27,241 nucleotides of DNA from a virus: positions 1 through 27,241 of IMG/VR virus record IMGVR_UViG_3300025030_000369. One strand, given 5' to 3'. Both the position numbers and the translations under genes were made by a program. The notes under the pieces were generated by a model. It searched no databases, was not told where the DNA came from, and was given only the letters and a program-made list of their open reading frames with translations. Of this stretch, positions 3,046 through 27,101 are shown one piece after another (the stretch's first letter is position 1; the number at the start of each line of letters is the position of its first letter).

Positions 3046-3073
3046 TTGACATAGTATGAGCTAATGCTATTAT
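3046..3073 (+). promoter_or_regulatory. Sigma70-type promoter ahead of the portal leader
   Basis: TTGACA at 3046-3051 (perfect -35), 16-nt spacer, TATTAT at 3068-3073 (-10) with a TG one base upstream (extended -10, 3065-3066). It lies in a 167-base intergenic gap. Transcription would start near 3080. The -35 region extends to TTGACATAGT, a 10-mer repeated at the promoter at 26274. Confidence 0.8.
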
Positions 3074-3079
3074 TGAATA

Positions 3080-3183
3080 ACGATTGAAAAATCGTGGCTG
3101 GCGACTAAGGTCAAGTAGCTGGGGTTACGACTCCGAAACTTTCCTAATCATTTTTTGGTTGGTGAAGTTTCGGAGTTTTTTAT
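3080..3183 (+). ncRNA. Structured leader RNA / attenuator upstream of portal
   Basis: From the predicted start near 3080 the RNA would begin with a 6-bp hairpin closed by GAAA (ACGATT 3080-3085 with AATCGT 3090-3095), then about 34 nt containing GTC/GAC complementary patches, then the terminator-like hairpin at 3130-3176. The transcript up to the T-run is about 100 nt. Because promoter and terminator both precede the portal start, the leader must either be a stand-alone small RNA or a conditional attenuator. No known riboswitch class is recognised. Confidence 0.6.
3130..3181 (+). terminator. Intrinsic terminator hairpin that contains the portal SD
   Basis: A perfect 12-bp stem (ACTCCGAAACTT at 3130-3141 with AAGTTTCGGAGT at 3165-3176) is followed by a T-run 3176-3181. 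The loop folds further: 3143-3150 pairs with 3156-3162 with one bulge. The 3' arm includes GGAG at 3172-3175, the only Shine-Dalgarno for the portal ATG at 3184 (8-nt spacing). Forming the hairpin would therefore both stop transcription and hide the ribosome site. Confidence 0.85.
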
Positions 3184-9499: not shown

Positions 9500-10327
9500 A
9501 TGCTACAAGTAGAACCAAAGGAAACATATCCAATAACACGCTATCTTGAAGACCCAACCGATACTGCGACTCGTTATGTAAGAGCATTGGTTTACAAACC
9601 ACGAACCAATGAGCTTTTGGCAACCCTTAACCTTACGGATAGGGGTAGCCAAAGGTTTGATTACAATTACGAAATTCCTGCTGATGTTTCAGGGCAAGGA
9701 TATTTTCTTCAGATTATTGTTAAAGTTTATGACGATTCGGCATATACAACTGAAAGCAATCGTTATGAGAGAAAAGAAATAAATCTTTTGGTCCAGCAAA
9801 GGTGGAATCAAGCGTTTGGTTCTGGGGGAGGGGGGATAGATATTAACTATAAAAAAATTCAGGAAATTATCAGAGATGAAGTTAAAAATGAATTTGCTAA
9901 ATTGCCAAAGCCAGAAAAACCAAAAGAAGTCAATTTAAGAGATTTAGAGGATAGATTGGCAATTGCCAAAGACAGAATAATCAGTGAAATCAAATCAATC
10001 AAAATTCCTGAACAGGAAAAAGTTGATTTTGGATTAGTAATAAAAACAATCAAAGACATTAAAATTCCCGAACATGATGAATTTGATTATTCAATGATAA
10101 CGGATACTATTGGCGATTTGAAATCTATTCTTCAGAATGAATTTTACGAAAAAGCAGAAACAATCAAAAATCTATTTAATGATTTATTTGAAGAATTAAA
10201 AAAGCCCCTTATCTTTACATTGCCAGAGGGAGCAAAAATGAATCGGGAAGAAAATAAAGAAAAGGAGAAAGAAACCGAAGAACACCTTAAAATAAATTTT
10301 AGAGATTATTTCAAAAATAGATTATGA
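9500..10327 (+). CDS. Two-domain protein: beta domain plus long coiled coil
   Basis: A 275-residue protein. Residues 1-105 form a predicted beta-sandwich (RYVRALVYKPRTNELLATL, YFLQIIVKVYDDSAY). A glycine linker (FGSGGGG, about 106-112) leads to a long charged helical half (113-275) with repeated IKIPE motifs (SIKIPEQEKVDFGL and DIKIPEHDEFDYSM) that are likely internal duplicates. GGAGG at 9486-9490 gives a reasonable ribosome site for ATG 9500. Unlike its neighbours it has no TM or signal, so it may be cytoplasmic or virion-internal and may join the anchored proteins. Family unknown. Overlaps the next start by 4 bases (ATGA). Confidence 0.6.
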   Translation: MLQVEPKETYPITRYLEDPTDTATRYVRALVYKPRTNELLATLNLTDRGSQRFDYNYEIPADVSGQGYFLQIIVKVYDDSAYTTESNRYERKEINLLVQQRWNQAFGSGGGGIDINYKKIQEIIRDEVKNEFAKLPKPEKPKEVNLRDLEDRLAIAKDRIISEIKSIKIPEQEKVDFGLVIKTIKDIKIPEHDEFDYSMITDTIGDLKSILQNEFYEKAETIKNLFNDLFEELKKPLIFTLPEGAKMNREENKEKEKETEEHLKINFRDYFKNRL

Positions 10328-12413: not shown

Positions 12414-13757
12414 ATGAATTGGGTCAAACAAAAATTAAATTGGGTAAAAAATAAAATAAAGCGTTTTTGGAAATGGCTATTAGTGGGCGGGGTTGGAATA
12501 GTTATGGCGGCGACATTGATTCCGCAGGATTCTATTCTAACCATTCAGAACAGGGCTGATGCAATAGACCAAGAAATAAAATCCAAATATACTAATGCGG
12601 TTGAAATAATAGATAAAAGAACCCTAACGGGCAAGACTTACAACTTGGGTGAGGGTAGATACTTATTGAAATCCACTATCGGGCGGCTTCACTATCAAGA
12701 TTCGCAAGGACAATTTCAAAATATTGATATAACCAAAAGAGCGTCTGATTTGGCGGGATTTGAAAGCGTGGTAGACACCGCGCCTTACAAACTTTACATC
12801 TCCGACAAAGGCGACAGGCGGATTTATCCCGACAGAAACAAGCCAGAATATATTGATTTGCCGACCCCTGATTGGCTGAATGGAAAAAAGGGGACTTGGG
12901 TTTCAGACCGAGAACTGAAGTGGACTAATCCGAATTATGATGTCTCGCTGATTTTAAGAGAAGACCGAATTAAATTTTTGGCGGTAATTAAAAAACCGAT
13001 TTCCCAAACCAGCTTCAGCTTTAATGTTTCGGAAAACGGGGCACAGCTTTTTAACTATTTGGGCGGGCTTACTTACTGGGACAGCTCGGAAGTTCCTGTT
13101 ATCAGGGATTTAGGAATGACTTACGAGAACGGGACTTTGACTTTAAGCTGGGATTTTTCGGGAATGGTTTATCCGATTTATGTTGACCCGACTTTTGCCC
13201 CCACTGCTGGAACGGATGATGTGATGAGGTGGGGAGCGACAGAGTTTAGGACTACTGATGCAAGCATCCACATTGGGCTTATCGGCGGCACTTCTTATAG
13301 CAGCGAAATTAGATTTCCCAGCGTTAATATCCCGCAAGGCAGCACAATTAACTCCGCCTATATCACTTTTATTTGCGGATTTAGCGGTTCTTCAAATACG
13401 GTTAGTTCAACAGTATATCTTGAGGATGCGGACGACTCTGATATAATAGACGATTATTCGGAATTTGACGCCGCCGCATTGACCGCGGGAACTGCTTGGA
13501 ACTCAATTCCTGGTTGGACAGTCGGTAATCCTTATGATACTCCAGATTTTACTGCCGATGTTCAAACAGTAATAAACAGAGCGGGCTGGGTATCTAATAA
13601 TGCTTTTGGGGTATTTATTAAGGACGCCGGCTCAACTGCCGCCCGATTCTATGCCGCCTATAATAACACCACCTATACCGAACCCGTATTGACGGTTACT
13701 TGGACAGAGCCTGGCGGAGTAGTTAATTTGCCAGTGATAATTATTGAAGAAGAATAA
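12414..13757 (+). CDS. Membrane-anchored protein with C-terminal jelly-roll-like domain
   Basis: A 447-residue protein. An amphipathic, Lys/Trp-rich N-terminus (MNWVKQKLNWVKNKIKRFWK) precedes one TM (about 20-36). Residues 55-250 form an unrecognised domain (KTYNLGEGRYLLKSTIGR; YWDSSEVPVIRDLGMTY; YPIYVDPT). The last 170 residues (EIRFPSVNIPQGSTINSAY; DFTADVQTVINRAGW; YTEPVLTVTW) match the DNRLRE-type jelly-roll pattern of exported proteins, a carbohydrate-binding-like fold. ATG 12414 is preferred to an in-frame TTG at 12375 inside the upstream gene. It is probably a surface or virion adhesion protein partnered with the fibre upstream. Function not proven. Confidence 0.65.
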   Translation: MNWVKQKLNWVKNKIKRFWKWLLVGGVGIVMAATLIPQDSILTIQNRADAIDQEIKSKYTNAVEIIDKRTLTGKTYNLGEGRYLLKSTIGRLHYQDSQGQFQNIDITKRASDLAGFESVVDTAPYKLYISDKGDRRIYPDRNKPEYIDLPTPDWLNGKKGTWVSDRELKWTNPNYDVSLILREDRIKFLAVIKKPISQTSFSFNVSENGAQLFNYLGGLTYWDSSEVPVIRDLGMTYENGTLTLSWDFSGMVYPIYVDPTFAPTAGTDDVMRWGATEFRTTDASIHIGLIGGTSYSSEIRFPSVNIPQGSTINSAYITFICGFSGSSNTVSSTVYLEDADDSDIIDDYSEFDAAALTAGTAWNSIPGWTVGNPYDTPDFTADVQTVINRAGWVSNNAFGVFIKDAGSTAARFYAAYNNTTYTEPVLTVTWTEPGGVVNLPVIIIEEE

Positions 13758-15608: not shown

Positions 15609-17522
15609 ATGTCAAGAATACCAGATTACATCATAGATAGGGAACAAAATAAAAAAGGGTTGTTTTCACCAGGTTGGATTAACGAATTGGACGCAAAAAC
15701 TATTCCCGAAGGGGCAATTTCCGATGGGCTTAATTGGATAGTCAAGGCCGATAAAATTGAATTAAGGCACGGATATAAATTATTGGGAGCAGATGTGGGA
15801 GTAGGTCAAGTTAGTGGATTAAAAGTAGGAATTGACGCTAATGGAGATGAGGTTCTTTTCAAAACAAGAAGCAGAAAAATAGAGTATATGCTTCCCGATG
15901 ATGCCGATTGGACAGAAGTGGGGACTGATTCTTTGCCAGCAGGAGCAAATGCCGATGAAATATCTATTGAGTTATACACCAATTTAGCTGGTAATTCAAT
16001 CTATTTTTCAAGTCCGAATAGCGGAATTTATAAGATAATGTTGGCAAATCCTGATACTTTAATTGATTTACTTTCAACGACTTTTAAGGGGAAAATTAGA
16101 ATTAAAGGGAATGCTATGCTTTTATGGGATAGGTTGGGTTCTGCTGGGCAGAAGGATAAAACAGGATTGTATCGGTCAAAATTGGATAAAGACACTTATG
16201 CTGATTACACTTTGGTTTCCGCCGAAAATATAGGAACGGGAGACGGAACAACCAAAACATTCGCTGACATTTTAGCATTTAAGGCGGCTGGAAGTAAAAG
16301 AAGTTGTTTTGGAATTTCGGCAACCGATGGAACTGAAACATTCAGCGACAATTATGATGGAACATTGACTGGCTCATTGGGAGGAACGGGAACGATTAAC
16401 TATGCCACAGGAGCGATTAGCATAACATTTAATACCGCCCCCGAAAATTTACAAGCTCTTACTTGCGATTATTATTGGGAAGACCCGACATCGGGAGGAA
16501 TAGCCGATTTTACGGCACCCACTTCTCCGAGAGTGGCGGCAGAAAGCTTTATTTTAAGACAAGACGAGGGGGGTGGAAATTTCCAAAATATTGGTGAATA
16601 TAACAACGATTATTATTGTTTTCATAAAACTAAAACTTGGAAAACCACTATTTCTGCAGATGATACGGAAGCAAGTAATTTGCTTTATAGGGAGAAGGTA
16701 GGCATACCAAATTGGCGAGCATTATGCGAAACGGGCGAGGGTATTTATTATATCGATACTTCCGAACAGAATAATATCCGACTTTGGCAGATTGCTTTAA
16801 CAATTTACAATACAGAGGCAGTGCCTCAAAAGATTTCTGATTTAATTGATTTATCGGGATTTTCTTTCACAAAAGCAGTTCTTAAGGAATTTGGTGATTA
16901 TGTAGTTATTGCTTGTCGTTTATCTTCGGCAACCCAAAATAACCGAATGCTTTTTTACGATAGAAAATTGAAATTATGGAATCCTCCAACGGATTTACAG
17001 GCATCGGTTTTGGATATTTTTAACGGAGCATTGATTGGAGGGGATTCTACTACTAATAATGTTTATGAATTGTTAAGCGGAGTGGACGATGATGATTCCG
17101 CTATTCCGAATTTCATTACTTTTAACGATAGCAATTTAAACAAAGATGGATTAAAATTTCCTCGCAGATTTATCATCAGAGGAGAAATACAAAGAGACCA
17201 ATTATTAAAAATTTACGCTTCAATAGATAATGGAGCATTTGTAGAAATTGGAGAAGTAAATGGCAATGACGATTATGTAAATAAAGGTACAAGAGTATTG
17301 GTAGGAACAAATGTAGTAGGGACAAAAGAAGTTGGGGGTGGTGGTTCAGGAATTTACGCCAATTATTATGAAAGAGAAATAAATATCACAGGATTGGTTG
17401 ATAAATTAGAAAGAATAAAAATTAAATTTGAGGCGACCCAAGTCGGATATGTGTCGGTATCAAGATTTGGGTTCAAGGATATAAGAGATAAAGGCAGAAA
17501 ATTGCCTGCCAAATATATTTAA
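15609..17522 (+). CDS. Tail nozzle / stabilisation protein (beta-propeller type)
   Basis: A 637-residue beta-rich protein following the adaptor by one base. Features such as DAKTIPEGAISDGLNWIVKAD, repeated strand-turn units (YFSSPNSGIYKIML; IYYIDTSEQNNIRLW; MLFYDRKLKLWNPP) and a C-terminal Ig-like part fit the P22 gp10 / T7 gp12 nozzle family, which closes the tail. Residues 208-291 (GTGDGTTKTFADILAF ... TGAISITFNTAPENLQAL) form an inserted beta module common as an add-on in phage proteins. The nozzle would contact fibres and gate DNA exit. Full length. Confidence 0.75.
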   Translation: MSRIPDYIIDREQNKKGLFSPGWINELDAKTIPEGAISDGLNWIVKADKIELRHGYKLLGADVGVGQVSGLKVGIDANGDEVLFKTRSRKIEYMLPDDADWTEVGTDSLPAGANADEISIELYTNLAGNSIYFSSPNSGIYKIMLANPDTLIDLLSTTFKGKIRIKGNAMLLWDRLGSAGQKDKTGLYRSKLDKDTYADYTLVSAENIGTGDGTTKTFADILAFKAAGSKRSCFGISATDGTETFSDNYDGTLTGSLGGTGTINYATGAISITFNTAPENLQALTCDYYWEDPTSGGIADFTAPTSPRVAAESFILRQDEGGGNFQNIGEYNNDYYCFHKTKTWKTTISADDTEASNLLYREKVGIPNWRALCETGEGIYYIDTSEQNNIRLWQIALTIYNTEAVPQKISDLIDLSGFSFTKAVLKEFGDYVVIACRLSSATQNNRMLFYDRKLKLWNPPTDLQASVLDIFNGALIGGDSTTNNVYELLSGVDDDDSAIPNFITFNDSNLNKDGLKFPRRFIIRGEIQRDQLLKIYASIDNGAFVEIGEVNGNDDYVNKGTRVLVGTNVVGTKEVGGGGSGIYANYYEREINITGLVDKLERIKIKFEATQVGYVSVSRFGFKDIRDKGRKLPAKYI

Positions 17523-26195: not shown

Positions 26196-26208
26196 TAAGA
26201 AGACCAGG

Positions 26209-26229
26209 AACCGCCGCGAGGCGGTTTTT
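26209..26229 (+). terminator. Intrinsic terminator after lysis/late block
   Basis: AACCGCC (26209-26215) pairs with GGCGGTT (26220-26226) with loop GCGA and is followed by TTTTT (26225-26229). It closes the rightward late transcript before the next promoter at 26274. Confidence 0.9.
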
Positions 26230-26273
26230 GGTTGGGTGTGGATAAGGGGCGACTTTAAGAGGAATTTTAGGAC

Positions 26274-26301
26274 TTGACATAGTTGCTGGATAGAATAAAA
26301 T
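26274..26301 (+). promoter_or_regulatory. Sigma70-type promoter ahead of replication initiator
   Basis: TTGACA at 26274-26279, 16-nt spacer, TAAAAT at 26296-26301. The -35 region reads TTGACATAGT, identical over 10 bases to the promoter at 3046. Predicted start near 26308. Confidence 0.8.
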
Positions 26302-26307
26302 AAATTA

Positions 26308-26420
26308 TATGGTCAAAATAATGAGAAACAATTTAATAAATAATTATCGGCAACAGGCCGGAATTGTCTATAGGTTCTCATTAACCTTGACCACGATTCC
26401 GGCCTTTTGCTTGTAAAAAT
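26308..26420 (+). ncRNA. Attenuator-like leader of replication initiator
   Basis: Stem A: GGTCAA (26311-26316) with TTGACC (26387-26392) and TAATGAGAA (26319-26327) with TTCTCATTA (26375-26383), 15 bp with an internal loop. Stem B: GGCCGGAAT (26356-26364) with ATTCCGGCC (26396-26404), 9 bp, followed by TTTT (26405-26408), a terminator. A small hairpin inside A (AATT..CGG/CCG..AATT, 26342-26365) uses the 5' arm of B, so A plus this hairpin and B are alternatives. The layout is that of a terminator/antiterminator switch. No known family recognised. Confidence 0.6.
26356..26408 (+). terminator. Terminator hairpin within initiator leader
   Basis: Perfect 9-bp GC-rich stem GGCCGGAAT/ATTCCGGCC with a 31-nt loop, followed by TTTTGCTTG. 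The loop is long and the T-run short (4), so termination may be partial or conditional. It lies 12 bases before ATG 26421. Confidence 0.6.
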
Positions 26421-27101
26421 ATGGAACAAGAAAAACTTATAAAAATAGATGATGAAAGCAAGGATAAAAGGTATTTTACTATTATCCCAAATTTCATTCT
26501 TAATCATTCAACAGCAATAGACCAAGCTCTTTATTCTCAAATGAAAAGATTGACGGAAGAAGAAGGCAAAAATATCTGTTATCCGTCTTTTAATTATTTA
26601 ATGAAACAACTAAAAATTGGAAAAGGTAATTTAAGAAAATCAATAAAATATCTTATAAAAAACAGATGGATAGATGATACTGGGAAAAGAAGGGTTAGGA
26701 CAAAAGGCGGTTATCAAATGATTCAATCTTATAAAATAAACGATATTTGGAAGTTGAATATGGAATACTATCAAAGGGGTCAAGGGGGTGCTGAAAATAC
26801 TCCCCTTGCTGAAAATCAAGGGGGTTCTGAAACTATCAAAGGGGGTGCTGAAAATGAGCAAGGGGGTGCTGGTTATGTCGCCATAAGAAGAACCATTAAA
26901 GAAGAACCATTAAAGAATAACAATAAAGAAATTTGTTTTTTATTAAAAGATTGGAACGAACGACAACTTTCCCCAATTGCCAACTTTATACCAGAAAATA
27001 TAGTCAATAAATATGGGGTGGTAAAAATCGGGAATCTATTTAAGAAGTTTGGGCCGGTGAATAATGGGTTCAGTCAATTTTTAAGCGAATTAAAAAAATA
27101 A
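26421..27101 (+). CDS. Replication initiator (lambda O-like HTH protein)
   Basis: A 226-residue protein. The N-terminal 100 residues (YFTIIPNFILNHSTAIDQAL; YPSFNYLMKQLKIGKGNLRK; SIKYLIKNRWID) form the winged-helix domain found in phage replication initiators. A Gly/Gln/Glu linker (residues 118-155: QGGAEN, QGGSET, KGGAEN, QGGAGY) is encoded by DNA iterons, as in phage O-type initiators whose gene contains the origin. The C-terminal part may recruit helicase. Initiators bind iterons to open DNA and load the replicative helicase. Its leader carries an attenuator-like structure. No SD. Confidence 0.75.
   Translation: MEQEKLIKIDDESKDKRYFTIIPNFILNHSTAIDQALYSQMKRLTEEEGKNICYPSFNYLMKQLKIGKGNLRKSIKYLIKNRWIDDTGKRRVRTKGGYQMIQSYKINDIWKLNMEYYQRGQGGAENTPLAENQGGSETIKGGAENEQGGAGYVAIRRTIKEEPLKNNNKEICFLLKDWNERQLSPIANFIPENIVNKYGVVKIGNLFKKFGPVNNGFSQFLSELKK
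26781..26876 (+). repeat. Iterons: candidate replication origin
   Basis: Four direct copies of CAAGGGGGTGCTGAAAAT or near variants at 26781-26798, 26817-26834, 26837-26855 and 26859-26876, with a partial copy before the first and a short reverse-oriented CTCCCCTTG piece (26800-26808). The last three are spaced 21 bp apart (two helical turns; 7 codons), the first 36 bp before the second. Iterons inside the initiator gene mark an O-type origin. Confidence 0.7.

Follow-up and report, generated by a model that had tools for sequence, protein, structure and literature searches.

Plasmids provide the classic examples of replication initiators controlled by RNA. The initiator leaders of the IncI-alpha plasmid ColIb-P9 and of IncB and IncL/M plasmids are controlled at the level of translation, through an antisense Inc RNA and sequestration of the ribosome site. 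In phage lambda, the pR'-tR' unit places a promoter, a leader of 100-200 nt and a terminator before an operon, with Q as the antiterminator. In ColIb-P9 repY-repZ, a leader pseudoknot governs initiator synthesis; work on this system is cited in PMC10724649. Leader peptides are coupled to plasmid rep genes (PMC5304414), and pIP501 uses attenuation by RNAIII, in which premature termination in the leader limits replication (PMC4981023).

Here we analysed 27,241 bases of virus DNA (the window), a source record that is probably incomplete, and describe a predicted leader before a replication initiator gene in which two helices, S1 (arms A and A') and S2 (arms B and B'), follow the order A-B-A'-B' along the transcript. 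Like ColIb-P9, the locus has a short leader frame that ends by the initiator start, at a distance of 4 nt in the window and in the related phage L022 and with an overlap in L163. It differs from ColIb-P9 in its terminator-like stem, its start codon at the predicted RNA 5' end, and its lack of a Shine-Dalgarno sequence and of a conserved antisense promoter; in a consensus scan of four phages, a promoter-like site for a ColIb-P9-type antisense RNA over the leader was seen only in the window. Premature termination in the initiator mRNA leader, predicted here, is shared with pIP501 and pT181, but these systems require an antisense RNA (RNAIII, countertranscript), of which the consensus scan gave no conserved case at our locus. 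The promoter-leader-terminator-operon layout is also that of lambda pR'-tR', whereas lambda has no conserved A-A' pairing, and here replication genes would be gated too. As in the trp and his attenuators, a leader frame overlaps alternative terminator and antiterminator stems; unlike in them, the order is A-B-A'-B' rather than 1-2-3-4 and the start codon lies at the predicted RNA end. No run of control codons is common to the four leader peptides that we compared, and the downstream genes are replication genes. Rfam returned no match in the whole window, and positions 26200-26500 gave only chance-level scores (E 0.08-10, far below the gathering scores). A survey of the literature on related terms, whose partial coverage makes it weak evidence, returned no account of a phage element of this kind.

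A leader with two interleaved helices precedes the initiator gene

The leader is located between a small acidic ORF and ORF 26421-27101 (Table 1). The preliminary description of this DNA had placed here a strong promoter, a 15-bp stem, a terminator stem, a hairpin whose 3' arm doubles as the 5' arm of the terminator, and a replication initiator downstream. We recovered all of these, the two stems within 1-2 nt of the positions first given; the hairpin (CGGCAACAGGCCG, 26348-26360) indeed uses the terminator 5' arm and is visible in the S1 fold. We inferred transcription to start 7-8 nt past the -10 element, which places the predicted start at 26308-26309.

Table 1 Features of the replication leader and of the second module in the window.
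Feature	Coordinates	Strand	Remarks
Second promoter-leader-terminator module	3046..3183	+	TTGACATAG -35 region; before ORF 3184, head of the structural genes
Promoter TTGACA-16-TAAAAT, sigma-70-type	26274..26301	+	11/12 consensus positions, top score in its part of the window
Predicted leader RNA, ~100 nt if ending at the T-run	26309..26408	+	fold z -4.0; counterparts in three phages
Candidate leaderless leader ORF, 35 codons, MVKIMRNNLINNYRQQAGIVYRFSLTLTTIPAFCL then stop	26309..26416	+	stop 4 nt before initiator ATG
S1 5' arm (A), TGGTCAA-aa-TAATGAGAA	26310..26327	+	compensatory change, 13/14 aligned S1 pairs, four phages
Linker L1, motif CAATTTAAT (CAATTTWAW-like in 4/4 long forms)	26328..26354	+	sequence comparison
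S2 5' arm (B), terminator-like stem	26355..26367	+	
Inner hairpin P3, GGTT-CTCATT-AACC; loop is core of S1 3' arm	26373..26386	+	MFE folds
S1 3' arm (A'), TTCTCATTA-acc-TTGACCA	26375..26393	+	
S2 3' arm (B'), then TTTT at 26405-26408	26393..26405	+	
Replication initiator (HTH_36; DnaD/O-like)	26421..27101	+	PF13730 and PHROG 428/186/270; no Shine-Dalgarno

S1 comprises 16 bp in two segments, 26310-26316 with 26387-26393 (7 bp) and 26319-26327 with 26375-26383 (9 bp), which are separated by an internal loop (AA / ACC). S2 comprises 13 bp including one T-G pair (26355-26367 with 26393-26405), and a single base, 26393, is common to both helices. S2 can be extended by GCAA/TTGC pairing (26350-26353 with 26407-26410); because the stem then takes up part of the T-run, S2 is only moderate as an intrinsic terminator, and termination at the window S2, with a T-run four long and partly pairable, may be weak. 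Hairpin P3 has counterparts in the predicted folds of L022 (CGGTT-TTCACG-AGCCG) and L163 (CGGA-AGTGATTC-TCCG). On the minus strand, the window also carries an antisense promoter-like sequence at 26343-26370 (TAGACA-16-GATAAT, 10/12, shuffle fraction 0.02).

The leader region is considerably more stable than shuffled sequence (fold z = -4.2; 0/200 shuffles equally stable), and relative to shuffles the transcript that contains only S1 scored z = -5.2 and the full leader z = -4.0. In all six elements considered below, S1 is the predicted fold of transcripts ending at A', and S2 then competes with S1 in the predicted folds of the full transcripts. For the window, a predicted energy of -25.9 kcal/mol was obtained both for the best fold that contains S1 and for the S2 hairpin. 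These energies and the order of synthesis support the earlier proposal that the two folds compete. That proposal had also allowed for a pseudoknot, and coexistence of S1 and S2 in this form, with A' running directly into B', is sterically conceivable in the long forms of the element, whose linker L1 measures 20-27 nt. The linker is 2 nt in the two short forms, L134 and L215, and S1 and S2 are therefore mutually exclusive there.

The element recurs in related phages with unrelated letters

We gathered about 100 related phage contigs via terminase, capsid and portal-position proteins, many of them whole or nearly whole. A first scan for promoter, terminator and start codon revealed modules in L022, L015, L091, L133, L163 and others, and the module before the L022 initiator has a leader with ATATGGTYAA and CAATTTWAT in common with the window. 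We then used a descriptor of two interleaved helices (A-B-A'-B') ending in TTTT, which was composed after the window, L022 and L163 had been viewed and which then detected L090, L134 and L215. The best matches in a scan of 1.73 Mb were L022/L018, L163, L090/L113 and the window. In 2.08 Mb (174 loci), nine matches scored at least 27.5, of which eight were promoter-linked, at six distinct places, compared with a mean of 0.1 match, and 0.0 with a promoter, in ten dinucleotide shuffles of the whole set. In a separate set, five named phages whose capsid or initiator genes are similar, the one descriptor match, at 13476-13612 of MW202577 (L234), was rejected because it is actually a ATGACGGATA repeat array; this array spans 13454-13650 downstream of a helicase gene and imitates the descriptor.

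Four elements are long forms (window, L022, L163 and L090) with unrelated stem sequences, and in the three relatives a promoter of the same type stands at an equal distance from the structure. In the two short forms, S1 has 12 bp and S2 about 17 bp. These lie directly after a promoter, with no recognised replication gene behind and no leader ORF; they are on the minus strands of L134 and L215, from 16677 and 3563 counted on the reverse complement.

Covariation across related phages, on which the preliminary description had made its reading depend, proved positive, as three other phages maintain both stems through compensatory changes. Across the four long forms, 56/56 cells of S1 pair, with double changes in 13 of the 14 pairs, and 47/48 cells of S2 pair, with double changes in 10 of the 12; pairing falls to 39-51% when arms are swapped. 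Arm pairs were counted by script, as the MAFFT alignment of the arms was misregistered. Since the arms had been selected by the descriptor, this count illustrates the covariation and the shuffled null is the actual test. Taken together, these comparisons indicate that, at the level of sequence, the element is real, conserved and non-random.

Other searches defined how far the element could be traced. A DNA similarity search of phages and plasmids gave AT-rich chance matches only, and a 51-base exact pattern gave none. A motif pattern built from two copies matched, among 41 stretches, only the L022 phage's own records. The element was absent from all five of the named phages mentioned above. 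A first scan for duplexes between terminator loops and upstream sequence was dropped, as it was too permissive in GC-rich phages. By eye, L015 has two leaders whose terminator loops pair with upstream segments, one on the plus strand at 9628-9760 before an HTH_36 initiator (ACCGGGAG/CTCCCGGT) and one on the minus strand at 16812-16975 (reverse-complement count) before an HNH-like gene (AACTTGGGGT/ACCCCAAGTT).

Each of the four long forms stands before a replication operon, and the initiators of these operons come from different families. Behind the leader lies a PHROG 428-like, HTH_36 initiator in the window, a PHROG 186-like initiator followed by a DnaB-like helicase in L022, a replisome organizer (PHROG 6251) in L163, and two small ORFs, a DnaD-like loader (PHROG 2514) and DnaB in L090. 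No relatives of the window's initiator protein were detected by tblastn in IMG/VR and INPHARED. The initiator gene of the window contains iteron-like direct repeats (four 20-nt copies, 26780-26877), as does that of L022 (three 19-nt copies, 22-23 nt apart, 1662-1725), and weaker ones occur in L163 and L090. By analogy with lambda O, these repeats suggest that the replication origin lies inside the initiator gene. A near-identical contig, L025, prolongs the window leftward and has short tandem repeats (GGCAATTCTCAGCAGTCT-like) at its start, positions 1-140.

A candidate leaderless frame spans the structure

In 4/4 long forms, an ATG stands 7-8 nt past the -10 element, at the predicted RNA 5' end, and the S1 5' arm starts at this ATG or a few bases from it. 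The frames that it opens have 32-48 codons and stay open through the whole structure in all four, while the eight alternative frames are all closed. Judged by shuffles, the openness of each frame has a chance of 0.13-0.20 (product ~7e-4), which alone is only modestly significant. In the window and L022, 4 nt separate the stop codon from the next gene. In L090 the frame stops 12 nt before a 65-aa ORF, with the initiator two genes later, and in L163 it overlaps the initiator and stops inside that gene. The four leader peptides have no residues in common and no two of the sequences are close. The CAATTTWAW motif is read in different frames, which suggests an RNA or DNA signal rather than a peptide, and the short variants without a leader ORF imply that the A-B-A'-B' part does not require the ORF.

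Shine-Dalgarno sites are scarce across the window. Of 97 strong promoters in these phages, 16 have an ATG 6-8 nt past the -10 element, a count that takes in the long forms as well as duplicate records, versus about 4 expected. The ORFs that begin near a promoter in this way, in the window and about 10 related contigs, have 26-124 codons. Leaderless genes thus look common in this phage group, and translation of the leader frame as a leaderless mRNA is plausible.

A second module lies before the structural genes

The -35 region TTGACATAG has only two exact copies in the window, one in each module promoter. In the second module, the leader measures about 100 nt, the terminator hairpin is strong and carries T6, and ORF 3184 comes directly after it. 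This ORF should be the portal gene by its position between terminase and capsid; a PHROG search with it gave no match. A recognisable counterpart of the module follows the terminase in L133 (4598-4789), and other modules stand before the portal-position gene in L022 and before a large ORF in L091, although the second module is not universal among the relatives. We looked for S1 in the structural-gene leader (3080-3183) and found only weak A/U and G/U pairing; lacking a convincing S1, this leader was kept separate from the A-B-A'-B' set.

Proposed mechanism and alternative explanations

By prediction and covariation, the element has what characterizes an attenuator, namely competing helices, the later of which is terminator-like, before a gene. 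We consider it reasonably probable that a co-transcriptional attenuator built on A-B-A'-B' controls the replication operon; coupling to a ribosome that starts at the candidate leaderless AUG is likely as well, but less certain. In this model, the polymerase would make A, B and A' first, so that the A:A' antiterminator forms with B trapped in its loop, as the predicted folding suggests. When B' emerges, the B:B' terminator would compete at nearly equal energy, with A' held in its loop. Because the energies are nearly equal, the outcome would be decided by timing and by anything that contacts arm A.

In the long form, what touches A may be a ribosome. The AUG lies at or beside the RNA start, and the frame crosses A, B, A' and B' and ends beside an initiator AUG without Shine-Dalgarno sequence. 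With a ribosome trailing the polymerase, the terminator would be melted and the ribosome brought to the initiator start. A ribosome stalled at A would favour termination, and in RNA that folds before a ribosome loads, the start codon would be concealed within S1. Both the amount of initiator and the transcription across the iteron-like region inside its gene would be set by the output. The earlier reading of the leader as a terminator/antiterminator switch before the initiator is partly supported, strengthened by covariation and competition, with its termination part based on prediction; it had overlooked the 5'-end frame, P3 and the second module. The role in copy number or lytic timing that it put forward is plausible under this model.

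Among the alternatives, the element could instead specify a stable, separately terminated small RNA that folds S1 and S2 into an H-type pseudoknot and acts in trans, the initiator merely following it. It has its own promoter and a terminator-like end, the 5' end is locked in S1, and the linker of the long forms is long enough for both helices together. We nevertheless regard this as unlikely, given that 4/4 long forms stand directly before replication operons, a position that a trans-acting RNA does not need, that an open frame runs through the structure in all of them, and that the helices cannot coexist in the short variants.

Factor-dependent processive antitermination, in which a terminator near the promoter would hold the operon back until the polymerase is modified by a phage antiterminator, in the manner of lambda Q at pR'-tR', would account for two modules with an identical TTGACATAG start before the replication and the structural genes, and for the similar modules in L022, L133 and L091. 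It leaves the conservation of S1 unexplained, however, and no Q-family antiterminator (Phage_antitermQ or Antiterm; PF06530, PF03589) was detected in 13 relatives, many of them fragmentary, nor Antiterm (PF03589) in the window, whereas the E. coli control was positive; an antiterminator of another kind could still be present. We rank it below the small RNA, as a rather unlikely explanation.

Improbable, in our estimate, is a same-strand copy-number sensor, in which the A' arm of a terminated leader would bind in trans to arm A of the following leader while this is being transcribed, block S1 and force termination. P3 would then be a kissing element; in the window, L022 and L163, its 6-8 nt loop is complementary to arm A. 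If true, template dosage would feed back on initiator synthesis without an antisense gene.

Lower still we place attenuation or translational control of the initiator by an antisense RNA, as in pT181, pIP501, R1 and ColIb-P9. The gene class and layout are the same as in those plasmids, and RNA from the minus-strand promoter-like site of the window would cover arm A, but the consensus scan showed no comparable promoter in L022, L163 or L090 (shuffle fractions 0.23, 0.37 and 1.0).

Chance hairpins in AT-rich intergenic DNA, where any single stem could arise, are a highly improbable explanation, as in 10 shuffles of the 2.08 Mb no promoter-linked case reached the score of the six real elements and the fold z is -4 to -5.

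Implications for phage replication control

That the same two folds occur in the same place with quite different letters in three distantly related phages argues that the gate is probably real, and the attenuator reading would make the element an on/off gate on phage DNA replication, probably of a kind not catalogued before. What is conserved is a structured, covarying leader before the replication operons of uncultured tailed phages. As the RNA is retained while the initiator family behind it differs, it appears to be a portable control module. The element also offers a case of a 5'-terminal start codon seemingly built into a terminator/antiterminator switch, and such a switch would allow a direct test of whether leaderless translation acts as a sensor of transcription.
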